Assembly: GCA_014904985.1 (NCBI GenBank)
Contig: MU129024.1
Location: 3,232 to 29,951 of the forward strand
Length of the DNA: 26,720 nt
Direction: 5' to 3'
Origin: Hydnum rufescens UP504
Taxonomy: Eukaryota > Basidiomycota > Agaricomycetes > Cantharellales > Hydnaceae
The notes below the pieces were generated by a model. That model ran no database searches. It was not told where the DNA came from and was given only the letters and a program-made list of their open reading frames with translations. The position numbers were made by a program, and so were the translations under genes. Positions 1 through 23,459 of the stretch are shown in pieces; position 1 is the stretch's first letter; the number at the start of each line of letters is the position of its first letter.

Positions 1-1116
1 TTCGTTTGTGGGGGTTCGTTCGTTAGTTATCTTGTTGTCGCGCGTTCGTTCGCCGGTTCTGCTTGGGCTCGCGGGGGGATTCTGGTTTCAGGATTAGAGA
101 AATAAATAATAAAATATTATTCAACTTATGCAGGCAAAAAGAGCAGCTTATGTGCTGCTTTTTGCGCCACAATAATAAGAATAAAAAAAATAGAAAAAAC
201 ATACTTGTAGGTACACCCACACCGCAATGCAGCGGTGGTGGGGTATGGGGCCCATGACTCTGGCTGGTCATTACGGCGGTTCGTAACAGGTGGCCCGTTT
301 GTGGGATCGGCGTCGATAAGGTGGGGGCTGTTGTTCGGTATTTATTTGCAGGGATGTTAAGACCTACAGAAAACCTTTTTAATTAGTTAAGAATTAAAAA
401 CCACGCAAAAAAGGCAGCTTTCGCTGCTCTTTTTGCGTGGCTGTAGCTACTAGGGTGGTGGGGGGCTACCTTATATAGAACCACACACCCGCCGTGGCAG
501 GTGTGTGATTCTGGGCCTTGTTCTTTATTTGGCGCGTTGCCGTGTCATGTTGCTGTGTCGTGTTGTTATGTTGCATTGTTGTGCCACGTTCCCATGTCGT
601 GCTGTGGTGTATCGCGCTGCCGGGTTGCCGTGTCGCGTTGTCTCATCGTTTCGCAGGTTATCTTCGTGCGTTGGATGGGCTCCTATCTGGAATAAAGTGC
701 ATCAGTGAAAAAATCCCAAAGCAGTGCAAAAAGAGCAGCTTACGCTGCTCTTTTTGCGCCACAACAATAAAAAAAAAAAATAAACCTTGTAGTACCCACA
801 CCCGCTGTAGCGGGTGTGGGGTACTGCGGTCCGTTGTTCGGTGTCGATAGTCAGGGGTTACGGGGGCTCTCACATGGGTATTCGTTTGTGCGGGAAGTGA
901 TGACCTATAATACAAGACTATATGTTAGTTAAGAGTTAAAGACCATGCAAAAAGAGCAGCTTTCGCTGCTCTTTTTGCGTGGCTGTAGCTACTGAGGGGG
1001 GGGGACTTATCTTATATGGAACCACACACCCGCCGTGGCGGGTGTGTGATTCCGGGCCCTCGTTTGGCGTGTTGCCGTATGTCACGTCGTCATTGTCGCG
1101 TTGTTGTCATGTCACG
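1..1116 (-). repeat. Hairpin A/B tandem array, block 1 (outside the left inverted repeat)
   Basis: Four degenerate repeat units alternate two hairpins. Hairpin A is at about 133-168, 401-440, 721-760 and 943-982, with GAGCAGC/GCTGCTC stems flanked by an A-tract and a T-tract. Hairpin B is at about 211-247, 481-508, 792-824 and 1021-1050, with ACACCCGC/GCGGGTGT stems. Minus-strand intron signals are recognisable but partly decayed. For example, an acceptor TATTATAG preceded by AACTAAC is near 905-935, while the matching donor near 1010 reads ATAAGT instead of GTAAGT. The short ORFs here have no conserved frame and are treated as chance. The block continues off the left edge of the window, so the array extends beyond it. 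Strand is assigned from the intron signals only. Confidence 0.8.
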
Positions 1117-1337
1117 TCACCTTGGTCAGTCATCTAAGCCTACCTAGTTAGGTACCACTTCCAGGGCAGATAATGGTACCTAAGTAGGTCCCATCACTAT
1201 TCCGGCCGAAATGGCCATTTTTATGATTTCACCTCCTGGACCAGAATTGGCCGAAATGGCCGAAAATTGGCCGAAAATTGGCCGAAACTGGGACTTGGAG
1301 AGAATCTCAGACTTGCAGGACAGCGGGCCATGCGGGC
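1117..1337 (+). repeat. Left terminal inverted repeat of a ~7 kb composite element
   Basis: This segment is almost the exact reverse complement of 7873-8087. It starts TCACCTTGGTCAGTC and contains the tandem 11-mer ATTGGCCGAAA. It ends near a GGGCCATGCGGGC motif. I estimate more than 90% identity between the arms by eye, with a few substitutions and short indels. The arms are inverted and enclose the hairpin array, the solo LTR and the large palindrome. Inference: these are the ends of a transposon-like unit. I see no convincing target-site duplication outside the arms, so they could instead be an inverted segmental duplication. Confidence 0.75.
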
Positions 1338-1521
1338 TTATCGGGGATAATCACCAGTAATTATTATTATATTCCCCCCTCTGGTGTTTCATTTATAGTT
1401 ATTTATTTATTATCATTATCACTATATACACCAGGTGGGGGCTGTTTTCATTTGGCAGTCTCATGTTTTGTTCTTATGAACTAATGTATTTATTTATTTA
1501 AAAATTCAATTAAAAAAACAT
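1337..1521. repeat. AT-rich direct repeat, copy 1
   Basis: The sequence from TATCGGGGATAAT to TTTAAAAATTCA, ending against hairpin B at 1522, is recognisably repeated in the same orientation at about 6340-6477. Both copies run through TATTTATTTATT tracts and a tTTTCAgTCcTGTTTTGTT-like stretch. No coding potential is visible. This copy links the left inverted repeat to the array, and the second copy follows the inverted unit. Confidence 0.6.
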
Positions 1522-3452
1522 ACCACACACCCGCTAGGGCAGGTGTGTGGTACCGTTCATTGTTTCCTCAGGACTTAGGACGGGGGTCGTCCGGTGTTCA
1601 GATGCGGGTTCAGGCGGCATGTTGCTGGGGTGTCAGGCAGCAAAACAGTAAGGAGGAAATTCAAAGCAGCACAAAAAGAGCAGCTATCACTGCTCTTTTT
1701 GCGCCACTTGCAAATAAAAATAAAAATAAAAATAAAAGACCACACCCCGCTGAGGGGGCTATGTGGTACTGGGCATTTCTGCCTTGGGGCTTGGATGGGG
1801 GCTCACCCGGCTCGTTGGTGGCCATTTGGGCGGGCGTGGCTTGGTGGTTCACCATTGTGTGGGTCGTTTGGGGGTTGTGGCTCTCTGTCGTCGTTTCGGG
1901 ACCTTTAAATTTGATCCTAGAATGGAATGATAACATACATTAGTAAAAAAATTCGAAGTGACGCCGGAGGAGCAGCTTGCACTGCTCCTTTGGCGTCACT
2001 GTAGATGTAGAAAGTTGAAAAAAAAAATACCTTGTAGTACCACACACCTGCATTGGCGGGTGTGTGGTACTCGTTTTTGCCCGGGGTTGCGTACCCTCGA
2101 CTGCCAGTTTTCCGTACAGTGGGTTCGGGGGTTTTTGGGCACATACTCGTTTGGGGGGAAGGAAGATCTAGAATACAAAATTTTAGATTAGTAAAAGTTA
2201 AAGCAATGCAAAAAGAGCTGCCTTCGCAGCTCTTTTTGCGCTGTTGGGGGTGCACTACATTACATACCTGGTATAGAACCACACACCTGCTACTGCGGGT
2301 GTGTGGTTTGTCTCTTTGTTCGGCGCATCATTGTTCACGGCGATGTTGTCGTTCCGGGGGGGCTCGCTTTGCGGGTCTTCACTTGTGGTGATACCTAGAA
2401 TAAAAAACTATTAGTTAAAAAATTATAAGCGACGCAAAAAGAGCAGCTTTCGCTGCTCTTTTTGCGTCGTCGGGGGTGTGTTACATACCTTGCATAGATA
2501 GAACCACACACCCGCTACTGCGGGTGTGTGGTTCTCTTCGTGTGGTGCGTCGTCGTTCGCGGGAGTGTTGTCGTTCTGGGGGGGCTTGCTTCGCGGGTCT
2601 CCATTTGTGACAATACCTAGAATAAGAACTCATTAGTTAAAAAATTATAAGCAATGCAAAAAGAGCAGCTTTCGCTGCTCTTTTTGTGTTGTCGGGGGTG
2701 TGTTACATACCTTGCATAGATAGAACCACACACCTGCTACTGCGGGTGTGTGGTTCTCTTCGTGTGGTGCATCGTCGTTCGCGGGGTGTTGTCGTTCTGG
2801 GGGGGCTTGCTTCGCGGGTCTCCATTTGTGACAATACCTAGAATAAGAAATCATTAGTTAAAAAATTAAAAGCAATGCAAAAAGAGCAGCTTTCGCTGCT
2901 CTTTTTGTGTCGTCGGGGGTGCGTTACATACATAGATAGAACCACACACCCACTACTGTGGGTGTGTGGTTTGTGGTGTGTCGTCGTTCGCCAGTCTCCC
3001 TTGCGGGCATGGTGGGCTTGCTCCGCGGGTCATCATTTGTGAGGATACCTAGAATGAAAAATTATTAGTTAAAAAATGAAAAACAATGCAAAAAGAGCAG
3101 CTTTCGCTGCTCTTTTTGCACCGTCGGGGGTACATTACATACCGAGTATAAAACCACACACCTGCAGCAGCGGGTGTGTGGTTCTCTTCGTGTGGTGTGT
3201 TGTTTGCCGGGGTGCTGTCATTCTGGCTTGCTTTGCGGGTTCATTTGTGGCAATACCTAGAATAAAATATTATTAGTTCAAAAAATAAAAGCGACACAAA
3301 AAGAGCAGCTGTCGCTGCTCTTTTTGCGCGGGGTACATTACATACCTTGTATAGAACCACACACCCACTACTGCGGGTGTGTGGTTCGTCCCTTCGTTTG
3401 GCATTGTTGTTCGCCAGTCTCCTTTGTTGTTTGCCGGTCTCCTTTGTTGTTC
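1522..3452 (-). repeat. Hairpin A/B tandem array, block 2 (most regular part)
   Basis: This block holds eight hairpin A stems at about 1669-1703, 1957-2000, 2208-2239, 2431-2468, 2657-2686, 2878-2907, 3087-3120 and 3297-3326. Hairpin B stems alternate with them at about 1522-1553, 1739-1767, 2037-2070, 2277-2308, 2501-2534, 2723-2756, 2940-2971, 3152-3183 and 3354-3387. From 2168 on the period is about 210-230 bp and neighbouring units are very similar, so amplification there is recent. The end of the block carries short repeats with the core TCTCCTTTGTTGTT, into which the LTR at 3458 inserted. Predicted exons differ in length modulo 3 (127, 128 and 137 nt), so a conserved protein is unlikely. 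Confidence 0.9.
1917..3345 (-). other. Series of seven predicted spliceosomal introns in array block 2
   Basis: Read on the minus strand, seven units carry an intron signature: 1917-2030, 2168-2267, 2395-2488, 2617-2710, 2838-2931, 3049-3142 and 3257-3345. Most donors are GTATGT, often after AAG or AGG; the 1917-2030 donor is GTATTT. The 3' ends have AACTAAT-type branch sites followed by TTATTCTAG. Four consecutive introns are exactly 94 nt. Hairpin A lies mid-intron. Hairpin B lies in the exon, ending roughly 6-20 nt upstream of the donor. The signals match the fungal consensus. Splicing itself is inferred, since no transcript is available here. Confidence 0.6.
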
Positions 3453-3562
3453 ACCGGTGTGGAAGATAAAAACATCCAGCATCAGAAAAAGTGAAATTAC
3501 ACAACTTCCAGCCATTGGACAATCACATGACCAATTATGAGATTAATTACAGCTACGTGCAG

Positions 3563-4020
3563 AAACGAAATTCGTTTTATAACTCCGTCAGTTTTGATCG
3601 GAGAGGTACGCCCATATAACGCTTAGAAAGCTACGATTCACACCTTTCGAACGGTACCAAACACAAGTTGAACGGACCAAAACTGCACTCTCCAGGCCAA
3701 TTTTATTATTAAAATCCAGGATTTCCAGTAAAAAACGAATACCTCTGTCAGTTCGCATTCAATACTCTCGGAACAACCGCGCCTAGAAAGATATAAAAAG
3801 TCCGCATCCAACGGTACTGAGCACGCGAAGAACAGATTAAAACTGAACTCTACAGAACGATATTACTATCAGAATTAACACCCATCAGTAAAAAACGAAT
3901 TTCTCTATCAGTTTACACCGGATCTGCTCAGAACCACCGCGCCCAGAAAGCTGTTAAAAATCCGCATTGAATGATACCAAGCACGCCTATTACGGATACA
4001 AACTGCTGTCTCTGCATCGA
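3563..4020 (+). repeat. Three diverged ~160 bp repeats in the LTR U3 region
   Basis: Copies begin near 3563, 3728 and 3890. Each opens with an AACGAAt core followed by ctCtgTCAGTTt. A conserved middle reads CGCCtAGAAAG, and each closes with a GGTACCaA/GcAC motif before an AACTG box. Identity is low but the order of motifs is kept. Such U3 repeats may act as enhancer-like elements; that is inference. Confidence 0.55.
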
Positions 4021-4199
4021 ATCCCACACCATGCACTTGTTCCTTTTATTAAACAGTAACAAAAACACCTTAACCACTGGACTAAGCTCAGATTAATCTC
4101 CAGAACCCGGAGATGTCCTTTAATTTCGCTTCCCATGAGCCCCAAAGCACATCACAAGATCAGTGACATCATGCTCCAACCACTCCACAAGCTCAGCAA

Positions 4200-4440
4200 A
4201 TTAGTGACATCATTCCCTTTATGAATCCTTTTGTTCTCTTTATGAATGACATCACTATGACTTCACTATGACATCACACTCTATGGATGACTCAGCTATG
4301 ACCGCATTATGACATCATTTCTTTATTACTCTTTTGTTCTACTCCACTATGACTCCCCATGACATCACTATGATCTCATAGCTTTATTACTCTTTTGTTC
4401 TTGCTCCATGCACAGCCACCTTCAGATAGGTATATAAGCT
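4200..4440 (+). promoter_or_regulatory. LTR promoter: TGACATCA cluster and TATA box
   Basis: ATGACATCA/CTATGAC motifs recur between about 4240 and 4375. They resemble CRE/AP-1-like bZIP sites. They are followed by GTATATAAGC at 4430-4439, a good TATA box, with a pyrimidine-rich stretch about 20-30 nt downstream where transcription could start. This position fits the U3/R boundary of an LTR. Confidence 0.5.
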
Positions 4441-4828
4441 AGCAGATTTTCTTGTTCCCCCCCATCTCCTCACTCTGGAAATCAACCACTGTCAACTACT
4501 GTCTACCATTCTGCTTAATATCTAAAGAACTGTCTATCTAAAGCCATCTGGAGCTAAGTCATCTTCAAGGTTGTTGAGACCAAGTTACTGGAAGCCATCT
4601 ACGCGAAATACTGAAGCCAAGGATAGTTGCAGAACCTAAGGTTAGAGTTGCTGGACATCCAAGGAAAAAGTAAGCATAACGAAATACGAGTCAGGAAAGA
4701 AGATTGAAGCATACTAACCAAACTAACCAAGCACTGACCATTCTATAGCCCACAGATATCCGCATTTTGACTAGGAGGACGTAAACGAGGACACACAAAT
4801 ATCAGTAAACAAACAAACGCAACACGAA

Positions 4829-4948
4829 CACGTATAAGCCTTTCCACAAGCATCCCAGACGTATAAGCCTTCCTATAAGCATCCTCCACATATAAGCCTT
4901 TCTATAAGCATTCCATACAACGTATAAGCCTTCCTATAAGCATCTACA
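4829..4948 (+). repeat. 29-30 bp tandem repeat, four copies, in LTR U5
   Basis: Four imperfect copies of acGTATAAGCCTTtCtAtAAGCATcC follow one another. The differences are small substitutions and one copy with a longer spacer. The region is A/C-rich with no ORF. Confidence 0.8.
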
Positions 4949-5146
4949 ATATATCATTGACTATTGCTAGTCCATATCACATTCCATTCTCCAATAAACA
5001 CATACATATCTTGCAGAGAGTGATCAACCATCAAAGCGAACCAACCCATTTGAATAAACAGAAACACAGTCTCCTATCTACACACTGGCTGAACCAGATT
5101 TTGATTTGACAGTCATCGGAGCTCCTAACCCTTCTTCTATACCGGT

Positions 5147-5429
5147 CTCCTTTGTTGTTCTGGGGGCTTGCTCCGCAGGTCCTCATTTGTGGCAGGTCGG
5201 GCCTCCTCGTTGGCACCTGGGACAAAGCCATAACCTAGAATAATAAAGTTGTTAGTAAAGAAATTAAAACCAGCGCAAAAAGAGTAGCTTTTGCTACTCT
5301 TTTTGCGCCGTTGTACCTACTAAAATGGAAACTTACCTTATGACCACACACCCGCAGCAGCGGGGTGTGGTCACGGGGTCGGGGTCGTGTGGTGGTCGTG
5401 TGTGTCGCCTTAGGATGTGGCTGCGTAGT
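5147..5429 (-). repeat. Hairpin A/B array, block 3, with predicted intron 5235-5336
   Basis: The array resumes after the LTR with one unit. Hairpin A (5273-5308) is the variant GAGTAGC/GCTACTC, a compensated change from the common GAGCAGC/GCTGCTC. Hairpin B is at 5341-5373. Read on the minus strand, 5235-5336 is a strong intron: AAG then GTAAGT, branch TACTAAC, acceptor TTATTCTAG. This unit forms the outer part of the left arm of the palindrome centred at 5760. Confidence 0.75.
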
Positions 5430-6090
5430 TGCGAAATTCAACGCCAGCAACTGCCAATACTCAAGAAGCACCCAAGTGCTGGCGCTACAAGCACAGTACA
5501 CATTAATAGTAAGCATGTAGATGCAAAATAAATACTATATAATAAATATTTGTCCAAGAAAATTCTAAGAAGAAGAAGATAATGAGTCAGAGCTCAATAA
5601 GGCATGATATGGCTAATTGCAAAGTGGATTGGGCCATTTCTATGCATCAGAATTGGCCGAAATTTGAATATATTGATGGTATATATGCACTCTACATGGA
5701 TGACGAGTTATATTGGACGTTCTGGGCATTTTTCAATTTTTCACACCTTCAATTCCCTATTTAGGAATTGAAGGTGTGAAAAATTGAAAAATGCCCAGAA
5801 CGTCCAATATAACTCGTCGTCCATGTAGAGTGCATATATACCATCAATATATTCAAATTTCGGCCAATTCTGATGCATAGAAATGGCCCAATCCACTTTG
5901 CAATTAGCCATATCATGCCTTATTGAGCTCTGACTCATTATCTTCTTCTTCTTAGAATTTTCTTGGACAAATATTTATTATATAGTATTTATTTTGCATC
6001 TACATGCTTACTATTAATGTGTACTGTGCTTGTAGCATCAGCACTGGGCGCTTCTTAAATACCGGCAATTGCCGGCGTTGAGTTTGCATC
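5430..6090. repeat. Large palindrome (~660 bp, 7-nt loop)
   Basis: Bases pair around centre 5760, where x pairs with 11520-x. The loop is only 5757-5763. From about 5485 to 6035 the arms are nearly identical. The visible differences are one GAT/GAC difference near 5702/5818 and a short indel near 5475. Outside this core, similarity fades but continues to about 5430 and 6090. Each arm contains CAGAATTGGCCGAAAT (5648-5663 and its mirror), which also occurs in the inverted repeats at 1117 and 7873. Each arm also encodes the same ~60-codon ORF; I regard this as a by-product of the symmetry. Confidence 0.92.
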
Positions 6091-6300
6091 TTCCTTCGCA
6101 TCTCCGCAACCAAAACAAGCAACCGCCTGGAAAGGCAAGCACACGACCACACACCCGTCACTGCGGGGGTGTGGTCACAAGGTGAGTGTTTCCCCTAGTA
6201 GATACAACAGCGCAAAAAGAGCAGCGAAAGCTGCTCTTTTTGCGCCCCTTTGAACCTTTTTACTAACATATTTTGTATTTTTCTAGATTGAGACCTGGGG
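6091..6300 (+). repeat. Inverted hairpin unit, array block 4
   Basis: The unit is in the opposite orientation to all the others. Hairpin B (6145-6177) comes first and hairpin A (6210-6245) second on the plus strand, with linker sequences reversed. It is the outer part of the right palindrome arm. Hairpin A here has the loop GAAA, the complement of the usual TTTC, as expected for an inverted copy. Confidence 0.8.
6182..6286 (+). other. Predicted intron on the plus strand in the inverted unit
   Basis: AAG is followed by GTGAGT at 6182. A TACTAAC branch site is at 6261-6267, and a pyrimidine-rich stretch ends in TTTTCTAG at 6286. Length is 105 nt with hairpin A in the middle. It mirrors the minus-strand intron at 5235-5336, so the splice signals flip with the repeat unit. 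Confidence 0.6.
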
Positions 6301-6339
6301 TCCAAGGCACAACGAAAACATGCGAAACGAGGGCCCAAA

Positions 6340-6477
6340 CCTATCGGGGATAATGTTTTCCATTTATAATTATTTATTATTCACTATATTGTACATATGC
6401 TCCACAGGGTTTCAGTCCTGTGTTTTGTTTTTATTGACTTGTTTATTATTTATTTATTTAAAAATTCATAAAAAACA
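6340..6477. repeat. AT-rich direct repeat, copy 2
   Basis: It shares the TATCGGGGATAAT start, the CAGTCcTGTTTTGTT stretch and the TATTTATTTATTTAAAAATTCA end with 1337-1521, in the same orientation. It again runs directly into a hairpin B (6477-6509). The join between the inverted unit and this repeat is probably a rearrangement breakpoint. Confidence 0.6.
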
Positions 6478-7872
6478 TACCACACACCCGCTTGGGCAGG
6501 CATGTGGTACTGTCTATAAAAATTTAAAACACTATCTAACACCCGCTTGGGCGGTGTGTGGTACCAGGGACGTTGTTTCATGCGCTTCACCGTTGGGGCT
6601 CCCCCTCACCCGTGGTTGCGTGTTTTCATTCGGTGGGGTCGTGGCTTCAGTTGGGGATGTGGATTCAGAAGAATACCTATGATAATAAATAATAAGGTAG
6701 TTAAAAAAAGAAAACCAGGCAAAAAGGAGCAGCCCCTGCTGCTTCCTTTTGCATAGTCGGACATGTATATATATACTAACCTTAAAGATTACCGCACCCG
6801 CCGAAGCGGGTGTGGGGTTCGTCCGGGCTTGTGTCGTGTTTCGACTTGTTGCCGTTCACGGGATTCATTTGGTGGGTGGTTGTCGTTCTCCCGTGTTCGT
6901 TTGGCGGGGTCGCGGGTGTTGGGTTCAGATGACAAACTAAAATAATAAATAATACGTTAGTTATAAAAAAAAATGAGAAAACCACGCAAAAGGAGCAGCG
7001 CACGCTGCTCCTCTTGCGCGGTTGTACTCACCTTAAAATTACCACACACCCGCAGAAGCGGGTGTGTGGTGCTCTCTTGGGTTTGGTCTGGCTGGTCGTG
7101 GTTGGCGTGGTTCGTTTGGCAGGTGTCATGGCTGGTCGCATCATCATTCCCGGGGGGGTTCGTTCGGTGGGTTGTCATTGGCTTGACCGTCTAGAATAGT
7201 AAATATGTTAGTAAAAGAAAAAATAGAAGAGCCACGCAAAAGGAGCAGCGTACGCTGCTCCTTTTCCGCGGTTGTGCAGATACTTACCTTACACACCTGC
7301 TTTGGCGGGTGTGGTTTTGTCTGGGGTTCTGTCTGGCCAGTCATCGTTGGCGGGTTTCGTTTGGCGTATGTTGTTTTGGGGGTCGTCATTTTTGCTTGAC
7401 ACCCTAGAATAGTAAATATATTAGTAAAAAGAAAAAAGAAGACCCATGCAAAAGGAGCAGCATACGCTGCTCCTTTCCGCATGGTTGTACTTACCTTAAA
7501 ATTATCATACACCCGCCGAAGCGGGTGTGTGGTTTTGTCTGGGGCTTTGTCCGGTTGGCCGTCGTTGGCGGGTCACATCGTGATTTCGGGGCGGGGTGGT
7601 TCGTTCGGCAGGTGTTATTTTGCTGGGTCTGGTCGATAACCTGGAATAAAAAATATATATAGTTGAGAAATAAAATCAGCCCGAAAGAGCAGCATCTGCT
7701 GCTCTTTCGCGCTGTTGGGGGTGTACAAACGTACCTGCCTTTATTAGAACCACACACCCGCCACGGCAGGTGTGGTTCCTGGGGCCACCCATAGGGGGTC
7801 TGTTGTCTGCTTTGGTTTGGCTGTTGCTGTGTCGGCCCTCATCGTGCGGGCTTTCGTCTAAAATAATCAAAG
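6477..7872 (-). repeat. Hairpin A/B tandem array, block 5
   Basis: Hairpin A stems are at about 6719-6752, 6982-7021, 7232-7271, 7443-7484 and 7682-7709. Hairpin B stems are at about 6477-6509 (with a degenerate second copy near 6536-6563), 6791-6817, 7041-7070, 7290-7314, 7506-7533 and 7747-7778. In this block hairpin A has an AAAAGGAGCAGC stem, and outer pairs CCACGC or CCATGC are matched on the other side. Orientation is as in block 2. No conserved protein frame is present. Confidence 0.88.
6677..7734 (-). other. Series of five predicted introns in array block 5
   Basis: On the minus strand, introns are predicted at 6677-6780 (donor GTTAGT, acceptor TATCATAG), 6937-7031 (GTGAGT; CTAAC; ATTTTAG), 7191-7287 (GTAAGT; TACTAAC; TATTCTAG), 7404-7494 (GTAAGT; TACTAAT; TATTCTAG) and 7641-7734 (GTACGT; CTCAACT; TATTCCAG). 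Donors follow AAG in four of the five; the exception, 7641-7734, follows CAG. Hairpin A lies in each intron. The hairpins differ in sequence from block 2, yet the splice signals are kept. Confidence 0.6.
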
Positions 7873-8087
7873 TGCCCGTATGGCCCACTGCAAGTCTGAG
7901 ATTCTCTAAGTCTCAGTTTCGGCCAAGTTTCGGCCAATTTTCGGCCATTTCAGCCAATTCTGGGCCAGGAGGTGAAATCATAAAAATGGCCATTTCGGCC
8001 GGAATAGTGATGGGACCTCCTTAGGTACCATTATCTGCCCCGGAAGTGGTACCTAACTAGGTAGGCTTAGATGACTGACCAAGGTGA
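7873..8087 (-). repeat. Right terminal inverted repeat of the ~7 kb composite element
   Basis: Reverse complement of 1117-1337, including the GGCCGAAA tandem motif and the GTACCATTATCTG segment. Its outer end (about 8087) abuts the repeat-rich 3' tail of the decayed gene, whose last open frame runs into the repeat and stops at 8057. This suggests the element landed in, and truncated, that gene. Confidence 0.75.
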
Positions 8088-8560
8088 GGAGACTCATGAT
8101 GAAATTCACGAGGAGGCTGGCGAGACTCGTGACGAGCTTCACGAGGAGGTTCATGAGACTGACGAGGAGGTTCACGAGGCTCCCAAAGAGGTTCACAAGA
8201 GTCGCGATGAACTTCACGAGGAGGTTCGCTGAGACTCATGAGGAGGTTCGCGAGACTCACGACGAACTCCATGAGATTCATGGGACCCACAACAAAGTTT
8301 GCTAGGAGATTCGCGAGACTTGTCGGAGGAGGTTCGCGAGACTCGTGAGGAGGAGGTTCGCGAGACTCACAAGGAGGAAGTTCGTGAGACTCACGAGGAG
8401 GTTCGTGAGACTCGCGGTGAGGAGGTTTCGGAGGTGGTTTGCGAAGAGGTTCGTGAGACTCATGACGAAATTTGCGACGTTCATGAGACTCATGATGAGA
8501 GGGTTCACGAGACTCATCACATGAAGCTTTGTGAGTCCCGTGGTGCAAAGGCTTGTGGGA
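8088..8560 (-). repeat. Short imperfect tandem repeats in the gene tail
   Basis: Plus strand reads as reiterated GAGACTCAcGAgGAGGTTCgc units of about 18-24 bp. Minus strand, in the frame of the upstream gene, gives H-E-S-R-E-P-P-style repeats. The middle (about 8250-8330) is out of frame, then the frame returns, so repeat-length indels have accumulated. The plus strand also shows an R-E-T-H-E-E repeat, but nothing upstream supports it as a gene. Confidence 0.7.
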
Positions 8561-11394
8561 CTTGTAGTGAGATGCTTCTTGGGACTCACGGAGAGATGTA
8601 CGTCCAGAGGCCCAGTTGCGAGAGACACTTGCTTCATCCTCATAGTATTGTGAATCACCATCATCAGTATTATTGGGAGATGATGAGGTTTTGTTTTCAA
8701 ACTCCATCGGATAATAATTTTCCTCAGAGTAGTCCCCTTGAGCAGCGTCTTCGAAAGATGGCAAACCTCAATCATCAATCCATTCTTTGTTTGACGAGTT
8801 ATCGGAGTCGTCAATTGTGGTAGAGCTAGAGTGGGATGGAAATCTCTATAAGTACAAATACGATACATGAGAGGCAGTGACTTGATCAATACTTAGGTTG
8901 AGGCGGTTTCGCTGGCCATAGCATAGATCTTCACGACGAAGAGGCTCGGGCGGCAGGTGATTATCCCCAACATCAGGGTCTCTAAAATCGGGCTCGCTAC
9001 CCTCTGAGATCGAGGGTAAACCATAAGTAGAATCTTGTATATTGCGCGGTGGCTCGAAGTGGATTTTTCAATTAGAGACGAACGTGCCATTGTTGTTGAG
9101 ACCGACAGTTTTGAATCAAGTGCACCAGAGTTCCCAGTACCACTACCTGCACCTGAAGATGAGGTAACTCGTGTCCTATTCGGCACTGAGGCAGGGAGTG
9201 GCTTGGTTGCACTACGTGAATTCCCTGCTCCGACCGGATTTCTTGATTTCGAATACAGAGTGTGAGACAATAATGGCTTGGCAGATCGGGTGGAAGACGT
9301 GGTGGTAGAGGCTACAGATCAGACATTGTGTGCCGCTATGGCACCTCTTGGTCATGGTCGTGGCTGTTGCCCTGGATCACTTTGAGGTTGAGACTGAGGT
9401 TGAAGAGTAGGTTGAGAATGAGAACGATATCGGGTGCGAGAGCGGGAACGAGAGCGGGAATGAGAGCGGTGCGAGAGTGAGAGCGTGAACGAGAGCGCCA
9501 ATGGGACGAAGTATTGTTCTGCTGGTGCGAACGGGAGTGGGACTGGGATCGTTGTGCTTGCTGTTGCCTCTGCGAATGCGACATTGAGGGTGAATTACTG
9601 CGAGAGGGATTCGAGTCAGAATCAGAATGAAGCTTTGTTTTCGCCTTCTTGTCTCATTTACGTGTGCCAGATTTCTTGGGGAGCCATGGTTGAATATCGC
9701 AGACACGCAGAAGAGTCTCTCCTTTATTGTTCTCGATGAGTGGGTATTGGTCAACATCATCAGGATCCTTGGCCACTAGCAATCTTATTTCAGACAAATC
9801 AATAGATCGGAGGTAGATACGAAACACTTGCCAGAATTCCATTTGCGAACGTGGAGGTGGCATGTCGAGCTGAATGCACAATTATTGATGAACGGCACCA
9901 ACTCGTCCTTCGAGTACTCAGATTGATTTGGAGTTGGAACTTGCAGGTCATCAGGCCAGCCCACCAAGGTCAGCTCCTTCGCGCAAAGTTTAAGACCTAG
10001 CTGCTTCATAGGAAATGCCCATTTGGTGCCATCCCGGGAATTCAGGATGCCGATGCCATGGGGTTCTGAAGAAATTGCTATAATCATTGCAACTCGCAAC
10101 AAAAAGGAATCATTAAATACCTAGAATTGGTTTCATAAATGCTGACAGAGCAGCACGAGCAGTGTCTCGGTTCATCAATGCCTTGTGTTTCTTCTCTTCG
10201 ACTAGTTGCTCGGGTTCAATTTCCCCAGAGTTCGTTGTTTTCAGAGTACTGGATTGACCTCAATTTGCACCATAACCAGTCAACTAAAGAGAACGGGACA
10301 TACTTTGCGGTTCGTATGGCATTGTGGAGTGTCTTAAGAATATTAGCCTTGAATGGGTCGAGTGCTTGCATAATCTCAGGCGATCCAGTAATCATGCAGT
10401 TCTGTGCGGTGGCATATCCATCTTGAAAGTCTCGATTGATAAGAAATGTAATCATTGCGATGTTCGAGAATGCGTCCAAATGTAAGGCCTACATACTGTA
10501 TCAGTGATGGAGCCCATACAGTTAAGGCATCTATGACAGGTCTACATGCCTGTTTTTTTATTGAATTTGCATTCCGAGCCATTATCGCTCCCCGCCGGCC
10601 TTCTTCTGCTTGTTCAAAGTCTTGAATACCTCTCTTCTCCTGTAGACCTTTTAGGAGACTGTCTTTTTTGGCCACAGCCTCGTTCTTGTTTAGACCTTCA
10701 AATAGTGTTGCATATTTAACTTTCATTCGCGCATTCCAAGCTTTCAACGGCTCTGTCAAACTCATATATTAGCCACTACTTAGCGTGAATAGGAGATTCG
10801 TACCATCTGTAGGCCAATTATCCTTTTCAGAACTCAAGAATGCATTCCATAGATTTTCAGTTCGAGAGGGTGGGACTGACGCCACATGGCCCGCCTCGGC
10901 AAGAATCCTACTGGGCTTGACTTGCCATTTTTGCGCCAGAAAATCCACAGCCTTCATGAATTGGCCCCAAATCAGTTCACACATCTTCCGTTGGTCCAGC
11001 AACAATGGACCATCTTTGAGAGTTGAGACGTTAGGGAGGATATCGGCAGTTGAATTGTTATCGTCGCATAGCTGATCGTCCCAGATGCCTTCCTGGGCCT
11101 GAAGATTGGCAAGTTCTGCTTCGATGTTGGGAATGTGAGGATGGTTTGACTTGGTCCTTGGCTTCTGGCATTGCTTCCCTGCAGTTCGGGTGCGTGCTGA
11201 TCGAACATTCCTGTTCTCGTCTTCTTTGCCGAAGACATCATCAAAGTGCTCATTGTTAGAGTCTTCTGAGTCAGATGGGGTAACGAACTCCGATCCACTA
11301 TCAACATCTTGACTCCAATCAACATCTTGATCTAGAGCTGCCTGTGCAAACCTAGTGATGAAGTTGGCACCCGTTGTAGTTCTAGACTTGAAGG

Positions 11395-11705
11395 GGGCAT
11401 TGGCGGATGTCGAAGGGACTCCGGATGTCGAAGGGACCATGGATGCCGACGAGATCGCAGATGCTGAAGGAACCGTAGACGCTGAAGGAACTGTAGATGC
11501 TGAAGGAACCATAGACGCTGAAGGAATCATAGACATTGAAGGGATCGTAGACGTCAAAGGAATTGTGAGTGTCGAAGGACGTGCGGATGTCAAAGGAATT
11601 GCGGGCATCGAACGAATTGTGGATGTCGAACAAATTGCAGACGTCGAACGAATTGCGGACGTCGAACGAATTGCAGACTTTGAAGGAAGTGTAGATACCG
11701 AATGA
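11395..11705 (-). repeat. 18-bp coding minisatellite (about 17 copies)
   Basis: Units such as GGAACCGTAGACGCTGAA repeat with an 18-bp period. On the minus strand they encode variants of the hexapeptide P-S-A-S-T-V in the same frame as the flanking decayed gene. Frame is kept throughout, which fits a repeat that expanded while the gene was still coding. Confidence 0.8.
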
Positions 11706-13055
11706 ATGGCGGGGGTGGAATGGCCCGCAAAGGTAGAGTGAACAGCAGATGTGGGAGATGTTGGATGAACAGTAGATGCCGAAGACAGTGCGGATAAAAG
11801 GGGAATCTAGTAAGGCGTTGGATCCTGTGTCAGATTTTCTTTCACTCGAAATGGATTGGGTGCACCTACGGCAGTGTCGTGTCATTCATACGTTCGCTTA
11901 GCCATGTTCAAGACATCAACTAGCCACTTATCGATAAGTCCAGACTCATGGTCTGTGGGACAGTGAGTAAAAGCGGATTGGAACATCTCGGGAATCACGG
12001 CTACCGCACCGCCAGAAGCCCAGAACACTGATCCATCCATCTGTTGAGTGTTCGCAATCGATACCGAGCATGCGACTTGCCGAACACTCTCGAAATTGCC
12101 CATAGAGAACATGGCAAGTGCCGCTTCAGCTTCGTATCAATCCCCAAAGGCTTGCTTGGCGAAGTCTTTAAATGCCAGGCCAAATTTAAGGTCGTCTATG
12201 AGAAAATCGCCAAAATTGTCAATGCCGAAGACTTGTCACCACTCTTCATAAGACTGAGGAATGTAGCTCCCAAGGTAGTCGCCCTGTGATGCAATAGTGC
12301 CGACATCTGGGAGGTGCTGAACGAGAATACGAAGATGTTGAATGTGCAATGCACACCATTCAGTACTACGAGGATCCCCGCCATTGAAAATCTCATATTC
12401 AATGGGAGTATCGGTACCCATAGAGGCATGTAGGGAACTGAAATCCATGACACCGCCATCATGAAGCTGTTCATATAATAATTAAGCAGGGAGTTCCTTA
12501 GTGACGACTGAATACTGACCAATATAGTATCATTATTGGAGAGAAGTATGGGGTCAATTGGGATTTCACTGCCTGAGGATAGGCTATCCACATTTCTGGG
12601 TGGCATGCCAAGTCTGGGTTGTCTGCCTTGGCCGCGGCCCCACACTTGTCCTTGTCCATGTCTGCGACTATGAATATGAATTGACTGCACCCAAGTGGCA
12701 GTGGGTTTTCCCCTTTTGGAGCCCAGCCCTCGGCCCCTGGCTGCCTCAGACTGAAGATATTCTTGACTTTCTTGGTATTTCTGAGTTCGTCGTATTTTAC
12801 GCATATGACCAGGCTAAAATAAAAAAAAATATTAGTTCAATGAATGGAAGGGGCCTCAATGCATACGTCTGCAGACCCGGAGCCGTCTTCACTCTTGGGT
12901 AAGTCTTGTTCACGGGCGGGATCAGATAATGAGGCACTCTGAGGAAAGTTCATCAGAATTGTGTAGGAATATATAGGTGAATATACTCATACCTCTCCTC
13001 TTATCCTTTTCTTGTCATTTAGTGATGTCTCTGAGGGTCCAGGATTATCTGACAT

Positions 13056-14209: not shown

Positions 14210-16735
14210 GAGCGGAAAATGGTTATGGCTTTCTACAACATAATTTTGATGTACACTAAGTCCGAGGACAAGCCCGTAGTTTTGGGATAAAGAACCTCGT
14301 GTGTCGCGGAGGTACAAACCAGTGAGAAACTATGTGGAGTACCTACGCTATATATAATAAAAGGGGTCGGCCCTAGAGCGGGCCAGAAGAGCGGGGAGGG
14401 TAGAGGCCGCCCACAAACGGGCACGTGACACTAATACGCCGTAGCCGATAACCGCCTACTCCAACACGTAGCAGATTTTTTTTAGACCAAGTCGTACCGA
14501 TTTTACACCATCCAACATATCTTCACAACCCTTCCACCAAGGTTTCATACACGTAACGTATTATCCATATAAGAAAAATGTCCCAAGAGATTCAAATCAT
14601 TTCAGCACACCGACAAGTGCAGTCCGCCACTGCGCAGACCGAATGCACCTTCCCTTTTGCATCCCCAAAGAACCAATCCAGCATGTGCCCTGAGTGCCCA
14701 CCATGTCGGCAAGCCTGACAAAATACCATTGCATCATCGATCGTATCTGTACATCGTACAAATTAAACAACACAGCCCACATTAATTTTCATGTGCGCTC
14801 ACCCTCAAATGAAATCGCATCAGCGAGTTCAATATGCCGTGCTTCTTCATCAGGCACCCCAATAGTCATGAGGCATATCACACATCGAGGCAATTTTCGT
14901 TGACACGACGGGCAAAAATCAGCCTGCAGTGGCATCGTCAAACAGCGGACAGGTGCTGATAGAAGATAGCTGACCTTGACCCTCCCATTGATGCCATACG
15001 GACCGCTTTCCGTAGGCTGCGACGAGTTGATAATCCTGTTGCAGTAATTACACCGTACCTCCAGCTGCCGGGGCACCCATTCGAACGGCGTGACCTCCCC
15101 ATCGTGAATGGCGGCCAATTTTATTTCCCCCCGAAGCATGTCGAACTGACAGCGGTGGTGGAATAGTCGCCATGAGTCCAAAAGGTTCTGATAACCTTCA
15201 ATCCACCGTTCCGAATGATTGTCGAATGGCTTCGAGCGCTCACTCGGCTTCCATCGAGCTGGAGAGACGCACGAAGCCAGAATCGCAGCAGTTTGAACAT
15301 CACCTGTGTTGTCCAAATATGCTTGAATCACATCCAATGCCAGGGGATTCAGACCAGTAATAAGAAGCGCTTCGATATCCCCGTAACGCTTCATACTCTC
15401 CACGAGGCCATGAAGATATTTGGTCAACTATAGCACGATCATGTCAGATCTCCCAATTGGATGAAGGGTGGCGATAACTGTACCTCATCATCAGGAAGGA
15501 AAAGGAAAGCGATCGCTAATCGCTCACGAAGGGGAATACTCGTCTCCTGCAGCAAGATATCCTCCCAACCGTCTCCAACGAGGTGAGAAAGCATCGTTCG
15601 AATATACATGTTGGTATTCCGCACCGCAAGCCGCTTTAGATGATCCAGCCATGGGTTCCGTTCACTGGCACTAGGGTGCTCCACTAGCATTTTGATCGTT
15701 CCAGATAGCATCTGAAGGGCTTCATCTAAAAAAACTCATTAAAATCACCCGGATAGGAGATAGATCAAGGTCATTCCACATACTCCGACTACGTAAAAGA
15801 ATTTCGATGGCGAGCTCATGATTTACCAAAAGGACTGCCCAGCAAGCGGCACGCTCCGCATTGGCGTTCTCTTCCCATCTAACAAGAAGCGAGGGTGAAT
15901 ATCCGTGTTGCCTAAGGCAGCATGCAGAAATATGGCGGACCTCTGGATGGCTTGCCTAAATTCTGCATCACTGTAATCCCAACCAAAAAGGCCTAGCGCA
16001 AACTGCCTCCGTGCGACTTTCGAAGATTGAACGGTGGCTGAGGAAATATCCTTCTTCACACCGTGCGTGCGCCCTCCATTAATGGTCTCGATTTCCGCTT
16101 CATAGTGTAGGCGGGATGAGTCACCTGCAGATTTGTTTCGGGACGATGGACGGCGATGGCCTCTTCCAGAGGATGTGCGTCCAGTGGCGCCGAGATTCGA
16201 GTGAGTTCCCTGCTGGTCCGAGTGTAATGTCCCTCGTTCTTTATCTTCGGCAGGTAAATTTTTGCTGGGAAAAGATGGAAAGCCTTCCCAGATGCTCAAT
16301 ACGCCTTGATACGTAAAGTCAAAGCCATGGAGTCGGCTAGATTCGACGCCCACGATGGTTCTGGATGCTGTGTGACAAGACTGCATCGAAGGTTACGCGA
16401 CGAAGCGGAGAACTATGCTTACAGTCCATCCACCTCCACAGCGCAGGCAAGGACTCCACGTCAGTGATAGGATTCCTGGTAGCGACGGAGGCATTATGAA
16501 TCATCTGGATTAAGATCACGGTTCAAAAGTGGTCGCGGCCTCGTGTAAAGACCAAGTAATATTAGTGACACTTTCAAGACCATAGCCAGCCATGACCCGG
16601 GCGCGCATCACTTTGGCAAGTTCGCGATGGCCCTTACGGGTCACGGGTCACTAGTCGGACATCTTCGGGCGCAGAAGACTTCAGCAAACCAGTACCATGT
16701 TCGTCCTCTGCCAGACGACCCTTTGACTGGGATCG
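14210..16735 (-). pseudogene. 5'-truncated duplicate of the SEA4/MIOS gene (3' half)
   Basis: Nearly identical to 21117-23459. On the minus strand it keeps the exon equivalents 6-12: 16423-16504, 15941-16367, 15784-15878, 15484-15725, 14975-15427, 14803-14923 and 14592-14746. All join in frame to a TGA at 14592. They encode the alpha-solenoid and the C-terminal zinc domain (CNYC, CPSC, CVIC, CQACRHGGHSGH, then CTCRC). The propeller exons are absent. The residual exon 5 piece (16570-16735) carries a 24-nt deletion and a 7-nt duplication, and its donor has changed from GTCAGT to GTCACT. It is a fragment without its start, yet it has the healthier 3' end of the two copies. Confidence 0.8.
14272..14466. 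mobile_element. ~190 bp insertion in the copy-1 3' flank
   Basis: In copy 2 the sequence runs from GTCCGAGGACAAG to CAGCAGATTTTTTTAGACC over four or five bases. In copy 1 the same flanks are separated by about 190 bp starting CCGTAGTTTTGGGA. A CGTAG pentamer occurs at both edges (near 14275 and 14468), which could be a target duplication. A TATATATAA stretch lies inside. No coding sequence or recognised family was found. A deletion from copy 2 is the alternative. Confidence 0.4.
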
Positions 16736-21116: not shown

Positions 21117-23459
21117 GGAAAAGGTTGTGGCTTTCTACAACATAATTTTGATGTACAGTAAGTCCGAGGACAAGTACACAGCAGATTTTTTTAGACCAAG
21201 TCGTACCGGTTTTACACCATCCAACATATCTTCGCAATCTTCCACCAGGTTCATACACGTAACATATTATACATAAAAGAAAAATGTCCTAACAGATTCA
21301 AATCATTTCAGCACACCGACAAGTGCAGTCCGCCACTGCGCAGACCGAATGCACCTTCCCTTTTGCATCCCCAAAGAACCAATCCAGCATGTGCCCTGAG
21401 TGCCCACCATGTCGGCAAGCCTGACAAAATACCATCGCATCATCGATCGTATCTGTACATCGTACAAATTAAACAACACAGCCCACATTAATTTTCATGT
21501 GCGCTCACCTTAAATGAAATCGCATCAGCGAGTTCAATATGCCGTGCTTCTTCATCAGGCACGCCAATAGTCATGAGGCATATCACACATCGAGGCAATT
21601 TTCGTTGACACGACGGGCAAAAATCAGCCTGCAGTGACATTGTCAAACTAGCGGACAGGTGCTGATAGAAGATAGCTGACCTTGACCCTCCCATTGATGC
21701 CATACGGACCACTTTCCGTAGGCTGCGACGAGTTGATGATCCTGTTGCAGTAATTACACCGTACCTCCAGTTGCCGGGGCACCCATTCGAACGGCGTGAC
21801 CTCCCCATCGTGAATGGCGGCCAATTTTATTTCCCCCCGAAGCATGTCGAACTGACAGCGGTGGTGGAATAGTCGCCATGAGTCCAAAAGATTCTGATAA
21901 CCTTCAATCCACCGTTCCGAATGATTGTCGAATGGCTTCGAGCGCTCACTCGGCTTCCATCGAGCTGGAGAGACGCACGAAGCCAGAATCGCAGCAGTTT
22001 GAACATCACCTGTGTTGTCCAGAATATGCTTGAATCACATCCAATGCCAGGGGATTCAGACCAGTAATGAGAAGCGCTTCGATATCCCCGTAACGCTTCA
22101 TACTCTCCACGAGGCCACGGAGATATTTGGTCAACTATAGCACGATCATGTCAGATCTCCCAATTGGATGAAGCGTGACGATAATTGTACCTCATCATCA
22201 GGAAGGAAAAGAAAAGCGATCGCCAATCGCTCACGAAGGGGAATACTCGTCTCCTGCAGCAAGATATCCTCCCAACCATCTCCAACCAGGTGAGAAAGCA
22301 TCGTTCGAATATACATGTTGGTATTCCGCACCGCAAGCCGCTTTAGATGATCCAGCCATGGGTTCCGTTCACTGGCACTAGGGTGCTCCACTAGCATTTT
22401 GATCGTTCCAGATAGCATCTGAAGCGCTTCATCTAAAACAACTCATTAAAATCACCCGGATAGGAGATAGATCAAGGTCATTCCACATACTCCGACTACG
22501 TAAAAGAATTTCGATGGCGAGCTCATGATTTCCCAGAAGGACTGCCCAGCAAGCGGCACGCTCCGCGTTGGCGTTCTCTTCCCATCTAACAAGAAGCGAG
22601 GGTGAATATCCGTGTTGCCTAAGGCAGCATGCAGAAATATGGCGAACCTCTGGATGGCTTGCCTAAATTCTGCATCACTGTAATCCCAACCAAGAAGGCC
22701 TAGCGCAAACTGCCTGCGTGCGACTTTCGAAGATTGAACGGTGGCTGAGGGCATATCCTTCTTTACACCGTGCGCACGCCCTCCATTAATGGTCTCGATT
22801 GCCGCTTCATACTGTAGGCGGGACGAGTCACCTGCTGATTTGTTTCGGGACGATGGACGGCGATGGCCTCTTCCAGAGGATGTGCGTCCAGTGGCGCCGA
22901 GATTCGAGTGAGTTCCCTGCTGATCCGAGTGTAATGTCCCTCGTTCTTTATCTTCAGCAGGTAAATTTTTGCTGGGAAAAGATGGAAAGCCTTCCCAGAT
23001 GCTCAATACGCCTTGATACGTAAAGTCAAAGCCATGGAGTCGGCTAGATTCGACGCCCATGATGGTTCTGGATGCTGTGTGACAAGACTGCATTCGAAGG
23101 TTACGTGACGAAGCGGAGAACTATACTTACAGTCCATCCACTTCCACAGCGCAGGCAAGGACTCTACGTCAGTGATAGGATTCCTGGTAGCGACGGAGGC
23201 ATTATGAATCATCTGGATTAAGATCAGGGTTCAAAAGTGGTCGCGGCCCCGTGTAAAGGCCAAGTACTATTACTGACACTTTCAAGACCATAGCCAGCCA
23301 TGACCCGTGCACGCATCACTTCCGATATATCCTCGCGCATCACTTTGGCAAGTTCGCGATGGCCCTTACGGGTCACTGGTCGGACATCCTCGGGCGCAGA
23401 AGACTTCAGCAAACCAGTATCATGTTCGTCCTCTGCGAGACGTCCCTTCGACTTGGATC
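21117..23459 (-). repeat. Segmental duplication, copy 2 (within the longer SEA4/MIOS gene)
   Basis: Counterpart of 14210-16735. Identity by eye is about 96-98% over exons and introns alike, so it is a DNA-level duplication and not a retrocopy. Similarity starts at GGCTTTCTACAACATAATTTTGATGTACA downstream of the gene and ends inside exon 5 near 23459. Orientation is direct, with about 4.4 kb between the copies. Confidence 0.9.

Follow-up and report, generated by a model that had tools for sequence, protein, structure and literature searches.

Tandem intron-exon cassettes around a palindromic centre in a putative Kyakuja-like transposon of Hydnum rufescens

A dispersed repeat of the basidiomycete Hydnum rufescens UP504 is, in our judgement, probably a non-autonomous, Kyakuja-like transposon, whose arms of intron-exon cassettes point outward from a palindromic centre and would yield spliced non-coding RNAs from a divergent promoter located there. 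Each cassette appears to comprise an intron with canonical splice signals, which carries hairpin A, and a putative non-coding exon ending in hairpin B. The window, that is, the whole stretch of DNA analysed (26,720 nt of contig MU129024.1, positions 3,232 to 29,951), contains the following predicted features, with positions counted from its first letter.

1..1117, minus strand: part of an adjoining array of degenerate units, with hairpins A near 145, 401, 724 and 943
1118..8086, no strand: composite element interval, with a CACCTTGGTCAGTC.. terminus at 1118 and an inverted copy ending at 8086
1917..2030, minus strand: hairpin-A intron, 114 nt; donor GTATTT, off consensus
2168..2267, minus strand: hairpin-A intron, 100 nt; GTATGT..TACTAAT..CTAG
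2395..2488, minus strand: hairpin-A intron, 94 nt; predicted fold -33.9 kcal/mol, z -8.0
2489..2616, minus strand: non-coding exon, 128 nt; hairpin B near its 3' end, fold -44.5 kcal/mol, z -5.9
2617..2710, minus strand: hairpin-A intron, 94 nt; placement verified by script
2838..2931, minus strand: hairpin-A intron, 94 nt; placement verified by script
3049..3142, minus strand: hairpin-A intron, 94 nt; placement verified by script
3257..3345, minus strand: hairpin-A intron, 89 nt; placement verified by script
5235..5336, minus strand: hairpin-A intron, 102 nt, the first to the left of the palindrome; GTAAGT..TACTAAC..CTAG, fold -33.3 kcal/mol, z -6.3
5472..6048, no strand: palindromic centre, 285-nt arms that are 99% complementary, 7 nt between them
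6182..6286, plus strand: hairpin-A intron, 105 nt, in the opposite arm; GTGAGT..TACTAAC..CTAG, structured as the minus-strand units
6677..6780, minus strand: hairpin-A intron, 104 nt; donor GTTAGT, no CTAAY, oriented toward the centre
6937..7031, minus strand: hairpin-A intron, 95 nt; GTGAGT, oriented toward the centre
7191..7287, minus strand: hairpin-A intron, 97 nt; GTAAGT
7404..7494, minus strand: hairpin-A intron, 91 nt; GTAAGT, fold -32.1 kcal/mol, z -6.0
7641..7734, minus strand: hairpin-A intron, 94 nt; GTACGT, no CTAAY branch site

Between 1917 and 7734 there are thus 13 hairpin-A introns on the minus strand and one inverted copy on the plus strand (6182-6286). The 13 were placed by hand from the sequence and then verified by script; this placement replaced an automatic choice of donors, which in several units had settled on a GTGTGT located within hairpin B. 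All 13 start with GT and end with AG, with lengths spanning 89-114 nt. The donor fits GTRNGT in 11, the exceptions being GTATTT (1917-2030) and GTTAGT (6677-6780), and a CTAAY branch site lies within the final 45 nt in 11, all except 6677-6780 and 7641-7734. A sequence-only reading had described the repeat as an intron-exon module, with hairpin A intronic and hairpin B at the exon end, and had counted at least 12 minus-strand units with splice signals; the 13 introns found here agree with both statements. Its run of four successive introns of exactly 94 nt was recovered when the coordinates were checked in the sequence (2395-2488, 2617-2710, 2838-2931 and 3049-3142), and the junction pairs that it named, 2488/2395, 2710/2617 and 7494/7404, are exact as predicted intron ends. 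Intron 5235-5336 is flanked by 1889 and 1340 nt, neither of which is a normal exon; an insertion of 1.7 kb sits in one of these stretches, and the other contains the palindrome.

The arms around the palindromes have a consistent polarity, since 138 of the 142 cassettes near a detected centre point outward from it. Within the window, the minus-strand units on the right-hand side of the centre (6677-7734) are oriented inward, which we counted against our preferred explanation. Both arms of the window palindrome contain TGACTCA and TATATAG, 48 nt apart. Over the family, each motif is present in 27 of 34 centre arms (shuffled means 1.1 for TGACTCA and 1.7 for TATATAG), and they are spaced by 46-50 nt in 23 of 34 arms and 13 of 17 palindromes, counts in which arms and copies are related and hence not independent. 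These motifs are consistent with the prediction that the centre is a divergent promoter, in which case each arm would give one spliced non-coding RNA.

For the whole repeat family, we oriented 245 of 338 hairpins A by the nearest hairpin B, leaving the splice signals unused; of the 93 that stayed uncounted, 92 lacked a hairpin B within 90 nt and one was at the edge of a locus. The full set of strict donor, branch site and acceptor was present in 157 of the 245 units (26 sources), with a mean of 4.05 and a maximum of 9 in 100 shuffles and a single unit of 245 on the antisense strand. As the units are related by descent, the test was redone on 18 representatives, one for each cluster formed by 318 units at 70% identity: 16 had branch site and acceptor, 11 a strict donor and 10 both, while mononucleotide shuffles gave means of 3.4 (maximum 9) for branch site plus acceptor and 0.6 (maximum 4) for the donor. 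At the level of the sequences compared, splice signals are kept across strongly diverged units. A scored choice of sites placed an intron in 232 of 245 units, with a median length of 100 nt, or 61 nt once the hairpin is subtracted. GTATGT (85), GTAAGT (41) and GTGAGT (40) predominated among 170 strict donors, the R at +3 being imposed by the pattern. Base composition also shifts at the predicted borders, from 63% A+C in exons to 45% T in introns without their hairpin. Among 12 young copies (88.9-96.4% identical; L022, which is split by an insertion, L016 and more distant loci were set aside), diversity was lowest at the splice dinucleotides (pi 0.023-0.026), followed by the remaining intron (0.049) and exons (0.064), with CpG decay as a possible confounder.

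These observations bear on a different explanation, in which the palindromes are DNA-level sites (bound by transposase or host proteins, or forming cruciforms) and the splice signals are unused relics of an ancestral gene. We hold this to be unlikely, although it is the alternative that fares best. Arrays of subterminal binding sites are common in DNA transposons, and the stems have no consistent excess of G.U over A.C pairs. With a strand-neutral detector, G.U and A.C counts were 94 and 82 in hairpin A and 136 and 133 in hairpin B; over the inner 13 pairs hairpin A had more A.C (44) than G.U (21), and hairpin B leaned the opposite way (G.U 100, A.C 74). This comparison thus gave no consistent sign of selection on a sense RNA fold, within a power limited by neutral decay of dead copies. 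Two-sided changes that preserve pairing occur in both hairpins, in a detection-biased count made with a detector that penalised A.C, and they would suit DNA sites too. Against this explanation, the splice signals persist in the representatives of the 18 clusters, and binding sites alone would account neither for this nor for the switch of composition at the predicted splice sites. A search of Rfam returned 20 matches with E values no higher than 1, and not one of them attained its gathering score; the palindrome scored best, against miRNA precursor models, which we attribute to its being a long hairpin. Two exon-junction patterns searched for spliced retrocopies found none: the second had 0 matches, and the 100 listed of the 130 matches of the first were acceptor sites, which this pattern fits within two mismatches, making it a poor test for retrocopies.

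We also considered whether the arrays could be a decayed multi-exon protein-coding gene with amplified exons, a possibility to which we give little credence. Seven deposited Hydnum proteins (P0003-P0009) are predicted from such arrays, six at E 1.1e-5 or better and the seventh at 0.049, and open spliced stretches reach 147 codons. However, the 131 exons over the sources fall into all length classes modulo 3 (50/30/51), as the sequence-only reading had noticed for the units at 1917-7734, stops occur in every frame (135/105/157, from the 113 exons that had an anchor), and most exon indels (66 of 79) are not multiples of three, as scored against one copy and so not independent. A Pfam scan of five of the seven proteins gave no match. 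By the frame, stop and indel counts, coding exons were rejected, and the exons show no sign of coding constraint, in line with the earlier proposal that any product would be non-coding. The deposited gene models weakly back single introns: one intron of P0003 coincides exactly with a hairpin-A intron, as does one in P0004. Under the reading with fewest introns, P0003 has six introns and residues 46-281 of P0004 also have six, so that each model contains no more than this single match. The P0003 model appears, moreover, to treat one hairpin A as coding sequence.

The cassettes belong to a dispersed element, mostly 4.5-5.5 kb long, with CA..TG ends, CAGGCTGG.. and CACCTTGG.. The CACC border had first emerged from alignment, and the subsequent end search demanded CA. 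The CAGG end is about 83% identical to the CACC end over its positions 6-75 (several loci), and one terminus has 343 genome copies at up to 1 mismatch (control 0). An exact 7-bp target duplication flanks 4 of 14 end pairs (L011, L015, L018 and L034); no 3-10 bp match flanks the element in the remaining 10, which was counted against the preferred explanation. Helitron ends (a hairpin followed by CTAG) had been a candidate and were dropped because the ends are CA..TG with duplications. In the window, the terminus at 1118 and the inverted copy ending at 8086 share about 200 bp at 96% identity; the interval has no target duplication and is thus not an intact insertion. For the repeated gene next to it (8098-12916), Pfam gave no match to the pieces and proteins scanned.

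Judged from these ends, the mobile unit is the larger dispersed element and not the single intron. This speaks against the kinship with introner-like elements that the sequence-only reading had suggested. That a mobile hairpin-A intron formed arrays by local insertion or duplication we regard as very improbable. Such an origin would agree with the stable internal fold of these introns, with their canonical U2-type splice signals, with the 1177 perfect hairpins A in the genome (control 0) and with the stable secondary structure described for fungal introner-like elements (PMC8469720). However, it is the element of mostly 4.5-5.5 kb that has the ends and the target duplications, and lone hairpin-A introns in genes, which the same reading had proposed to look for, did not appear: 10 of 10 sampled apparent singles lay in array-like repeats with hairpin B, and none was a single intron at an unrelated host-gene position, in a sample (10 of 1177 perfect hairpins) that rare genic singles could escape. 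Loci L045 and L051, for instance, have one strict hairpin-A motif per 2 kb, yet several hairpin-B motifs and homology to the arrays. The GAGCAGC palindrome has no occurrence in the window beyond 8100, a stretch that includes the MIOS gene.

Returning to the Kyakuja-like transposon that we favour, Kyakuja (KDZ) elements such as Kyakuja-1_LB of Laccaria bicolor are described, in the portions of PMC12730594 consulted, as having 7-bp target duplications and 5'-CA..TG-3' ends, both of which the Hydnum element shares. Kyakuja-1_LB and -2_LB are reported there (section 3.2.1) to be without terminal inverted repeats, whereas the two ends of the Hydnum element resemble each other, and its body of intron-exon arrays with a palindromic centre is a further difference. 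KDZ has 154 reported matches in this genome; among those listed, a comparison by eye placed none within the 14 end-pair intervals. The hAT dimerisation domain, taken as an alternative transposase, has 90 genome matches, and hAT elements with 7-bp duplications are also found in rust fungi, a point against the Kyakuja assignment. The element is likely to be moved by a Kyakuja-type transposase made elsewhere in the genome.

How such an element might work can be proposed as follows. With hairpin A folded away, the intron presented to the spliceosome would be roughly 60 nt long, and the mature RNA would retain the hairpins B. We propose that cassettes multiplied in tandem because every added intron would raise RNA accumulation; in another basidiomycete, Cryptococcus neoformans, intron number cumulatively raises RNA accumulation, according to the part of PMC3744415 consulted. 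The RNA might then evade silencing and keep the locus open to the transposase, which is a guess and the weakest step. More tentatively, and with slightly less than even confidence, the family may stand for a transposon class with a body consisting entirely of two non-coding genes, transcribed divergently from a palindromic promoter and put together from an intron-exon cassette that can be amplified. Intron number would then be the selected trait, and such elements would live by heavily spliced RNA and not by protein.

Galileo, of the P superfamily, has 7-bp target-site duplications and a fold-back form. The Hydnum element resembles Galileo in its fold-back architecture and 7-bp duplications. 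It differs from Galileo in host, ends and interior (PMC4168063). Like introner-like elements (described in 2012; via PMC8469720 and PMC9860276), it has a large set of related introns, each with a stable hairpin within, but these are in tandem inside a transposon and, as far as sampled, do not occur one by one in host genes. The internally symmetrical stwintrons of Hypoxylaceae (PMC8469720) are also proliferated fungal introns with inverted repeats; they reach new gene positions without target duplications, whereas in Hydnum the hairpin is enclosed in a canonical intron. Non-autonomous, satellite-bearing oyster Helentrons (PMC7492417) likewise carry and disperse tandem arrays, of satellite-like repeats in their case and of intron-exon cassettes in Hydnum. 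Our literature search, which covered titles, abstract openings and few subscription papers, found no tandem intron-exon arrays in a transposon.

Introns are usually viewed as passengers that genes carry along. In the Hydnum element, by contrast, a high-copy transposon appears to be built from intron-exon cassettes, which would let tandem introns multiply without insertion into genes, and its two protein-less spliced RNAs, if made, would be a new use of introns by a transposon. If spliced, the arrays, which vary naturally in intron number and hairpins, may serve to study the effects of introns on RNA levels and whether introns shield transposons from silencing. The element would also explain why some of the proteins predicted for this fungus look dubious, such as P0003 and P0004, which were read from arrays.

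The first 8 kb of the window carry hairpins of two classes, A and B, in alternation, and most hairpins A, when read on the minus strand, have splice signals around them (donor, branch site and acceptor). We refer to a hairpin-A intron together with its exon, which bears hairpin B near the 3' end, as a unit or cassette, and to tandem units as an array. The features of the window are listed here in its coordinates.

1118-8086: window copy of a dispersed mobile element with arrays in two arms
5472-6048: palindromic centre of this copy
1917-7734: 13 minus-strand introns and one plus-strand intron (6182-6286)
~3456-5141: 1.7 kb piece inside the array
6677-7734, minus strand: units to the right of the centre, oriented inward
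8098-12916, minus strand: degenerate repeated gene
11404-11678: 18/36-bp tandem repeat inside the degenerate gene
14470-16735 and 21180-23460: one 2.3 kb stretch present twice, in direct orientation

Intron coordinates were placed by hand and then verified, and these were used instead of an automatic donor choice, which took GTGTGT inside hairpin B for several units. A coordinate check confirmed that four introns in succession are each 94 nt long, as the sequence-only reading had stated. Among four sequences folded, three introns gave -32.1 to -33.9 kcal/mol and one exon -44.5 kcal/mol, with z-scores of -5.9 to -8.0. The donor-like GTGTGT lies in the 3' arm of the exonic hairpin B on the minus strand (for example at 2500-2515), and one deposited gene model (P0004), as read here, uses the hairpin-B GTGTGT as a donor. 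Pairing in the hairpin-B stem may keep the splicing machinery from seeing this decoy.

To compare the splice signals with chance, we examined the window together with 25 fetched loci, which yielded 338 class A and 294 class B hairpins. Orientation was assigned to 245 of the 338 hairpins A by the nearest hairpin B, the splice signals not being consulted; of the rest, 92 lacked any hairpin B within 90 nt, and one sat at an edge. A strict GTRNGT donor was present in 170 of the 245 oriented units (mean of 100 dinucleotide shuffles 27.9; antisense strand 15), a CTRAY branch site followed downstream by YAG in 228 (shuffles 35.5; antisense 4) and both together in 157 (shuffles 4.05; antisense 1). Scored site choice yielded an intron in 232/245 units, with a median length of 100 nt, or 61 nt without the hairpin. 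Because units descend from each other, 318 of them, from a set that included further loci (two overlapping by ~0.6 kb), were clustered at 70% identity, and the 18 cluster representatives retained a strict donor in 11 cases, branch site plus acceptor in 16 and both in 10 (mononucleotide shuffle means 0.6 for the strict donor and 3.4 for branch site plus acceptor). Among 12 young copies, variation was lowest at the splice dinucleotides, a pattern that CpG decay may confound.

The lengths of 131 exons between successive introns, modulo 3, are distributed 50/30/51, and stops per frame, counted from hairpin B in the 113 exons with this anchor, number 135/105/157. Exon indels with respect to one reference copy were multiples of three in 13 of 79 cases, the pairs not being independent. 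Exons are 63% A+C and introns minus the hairpin 45% T. When the fetched locus L011 was spliced in silico, removing eight introns from the right arm and three from the left, stops were found in all frames. These exon lengths, stops and indels, together with the splice signals measured against shuffles, bear out the claim of non-coding intron-exon modules.

A query made from translated spliced arrays retrieved seven predicted Hydnum proteins (six with E <= 1.1e-5, one with E 0.049). One of the deposited proteins, P0003, reads exactly on contig C134, and its fewest-intron reading requires six introns, of which one coincides exactly with a hairpin-A intron. Residues 46-281 of P0004 likewise require six, with one exact hairpin-A intron and a CTAG acceptor ending four of the six. 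The remaining introns look like choices of the gene predictor that keep the frame open, and the two gene models weakly favour hairpin-A introns as predicted splice units.

Homology to the window stops sharply at 1118 in many loci, and the element is bordered by CACCTTGGTCAGTC.. and CAGGCTGGTCAGTC.. In the 63.2 Mb assembly (539 contigs), the CACC terminus, which is the element end at 1118 and, inverted, the end at 8086, occurs 343 times with <=1 mismatch (control 0), and the perfect hairpin A 1177 times (control 0), the palindromic pattern being reported on both strands. Among 14 end pairs 3-8.5 kb apart, 11 span 4.46-5.48 kb and the others 5.98, 6.97 (the window copy) and 7.11 kb. An exact 7-bp duplication flanks four of these pairs (GACAGCT, GTCAGTT, AAGCTCC and GATTGTT), and no target duplication was found at the other ten. 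We regard the window copy as a composite, since both of its ends are of the CACC type, a flanking duplication is absent and the units at 6677-7734 face inward. The piece at ~3456-5141 is a later insertion, LTR-like in appearance, which starts with TGTGGAAG and has ACCGG on either side; parts of it also occur in six fetched loci (L015, L016, L019, L022, L023 and L026).

Kyakuja elements of Laccaria have CA..TG ends and 7-bp duplications, both common to the Hydnum element, whereas the described families are without terminal inverted repeats (PMC12730594) and the two ends of the Hydnum element resemble each other. Duplications of 7 bp are also described in hAT7 elements of rusts. The Kyakuja-type transposase (KDZ) gave at least 154 matches in the genome (584 first-look candidates, 150 scored), more than the hAT dimerisation domain with 90, and none of the KDZ matches listed fell inside the 14 end-pair intervals when positions were compared by eye. 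Given the hAT7 duplications, the lack of a listed KDZ match inside and the alike ends, we call the element Kyakuja-like, which is short of proven membership. Judged by its sequence, it is a non-autonomous, Kyakuja-like transposon of palindromic build, with predicted intron arrays as its arms.

A long palindrome was detected in 16 of 26 sources; the second one of locus L029 is not an element centre. Within 2.8 kb of the palindrome, 138 of 142 units (15 sources) are oriented outward. Of the four others, two belong to the window, one to L016 and one to L019. Over the initial 300 nt of each arm, likeness between copies is 0.67-0.92 per 20 nt (>=0.77 in 13 of the 15 intervals), and 0.54-0.62 beyond the first intron. 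TGACTCA, which we take to be a bZIP-type site, and TATATAG, presumably a TATA box, each occur in 27/34 arms (shuffled 1.1 and 1.7, values that overstate the case given the kinship of arms and copies). They stand near positions 171 (22 arms) and 219 (24 arms), and are 46-50 nt apart in 23/34 arms, 20 of which have a spacing of 48 nt; these 23 arms belong to 13 of 17 palindromes. We infer that the palindromic centre is a predicted promoter. In L022, a 1.36 kb stretch (~1640-3001) lies at the palindrome centre between parts matching window positions 5744 and 5746, as if inserted at the palindrome tip.

Kinship with introner-like elements, which the sequence-only reading had proposed, was not supported. 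Ten seemingly isolated hairpins A, drawn from the 1177-hit list in a check for lone hairpin-A introns, all lay in array-like regions, with motifs of both hairpin classes and array homology covering the regions wholly or partly (10/10). The fetched loci L045 and L051 have one strict hairpin-A motif each, and the window beyond 8100 contains no hairpin-A palindrome. In a eukaryote-wide paper on introners, the fungi named are Pezizomycotina, and its main text makes no mention of basidiomyc- or Hydnum (PMC9860276). The non-coding intron-exon modules were real and unusual, but their setting is the arms of a Kyakuja-like transposon and probably not an introner.

To the observed cassettes, polarity, ends and duplications we add a proposed working, in which two outward transcripts would each be spliced at their own hairpin-A introns, leaving a predicted mature RNA that is A+C-rich and carries many hairpins B. 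Through hairpin A, donor and branch site would be brought effectively closer together. In Cryptococcus neoformans, expression is described as rising cumulatively with intron number (PMC3744415); if the same applied here, it would give selection for more cassettes. On the sense strand, G.U does not consistently outnumber A.C in the stems (whole stems, 94 vs 82 in hairpin A and 136 vs 133 in hairpin B; inner 13 pairs, 21 vs 44 and 100 vs 74). This may tell against the folds acting in the RNA, but neutral decay of dead copies would blur any such signal. A genome search with two junction patterns found no spliced retrocopies among the matches listed. Splicing of the arrays, if real, decides how interesting the element is.

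In the neighbouring sequence, the 2.3 kb stretch that occurs twice (95.7% identity) belongs to the MIOS (SEA4/GATOR) gene region, so that the MIOS gene looks interrupted or partly duplicated. The degenerate gene is 94% identical in L017 over 9299-12916, and its relatives are deposited as the hypothetical proteins BS47DRAFT_1394478 and BS47DRAFT_1402844; the gene pieces and proteins scanned gave no Pfam match. In one reading frame, its tandem repeat gives a repetitive S/T/P-rich stretch.
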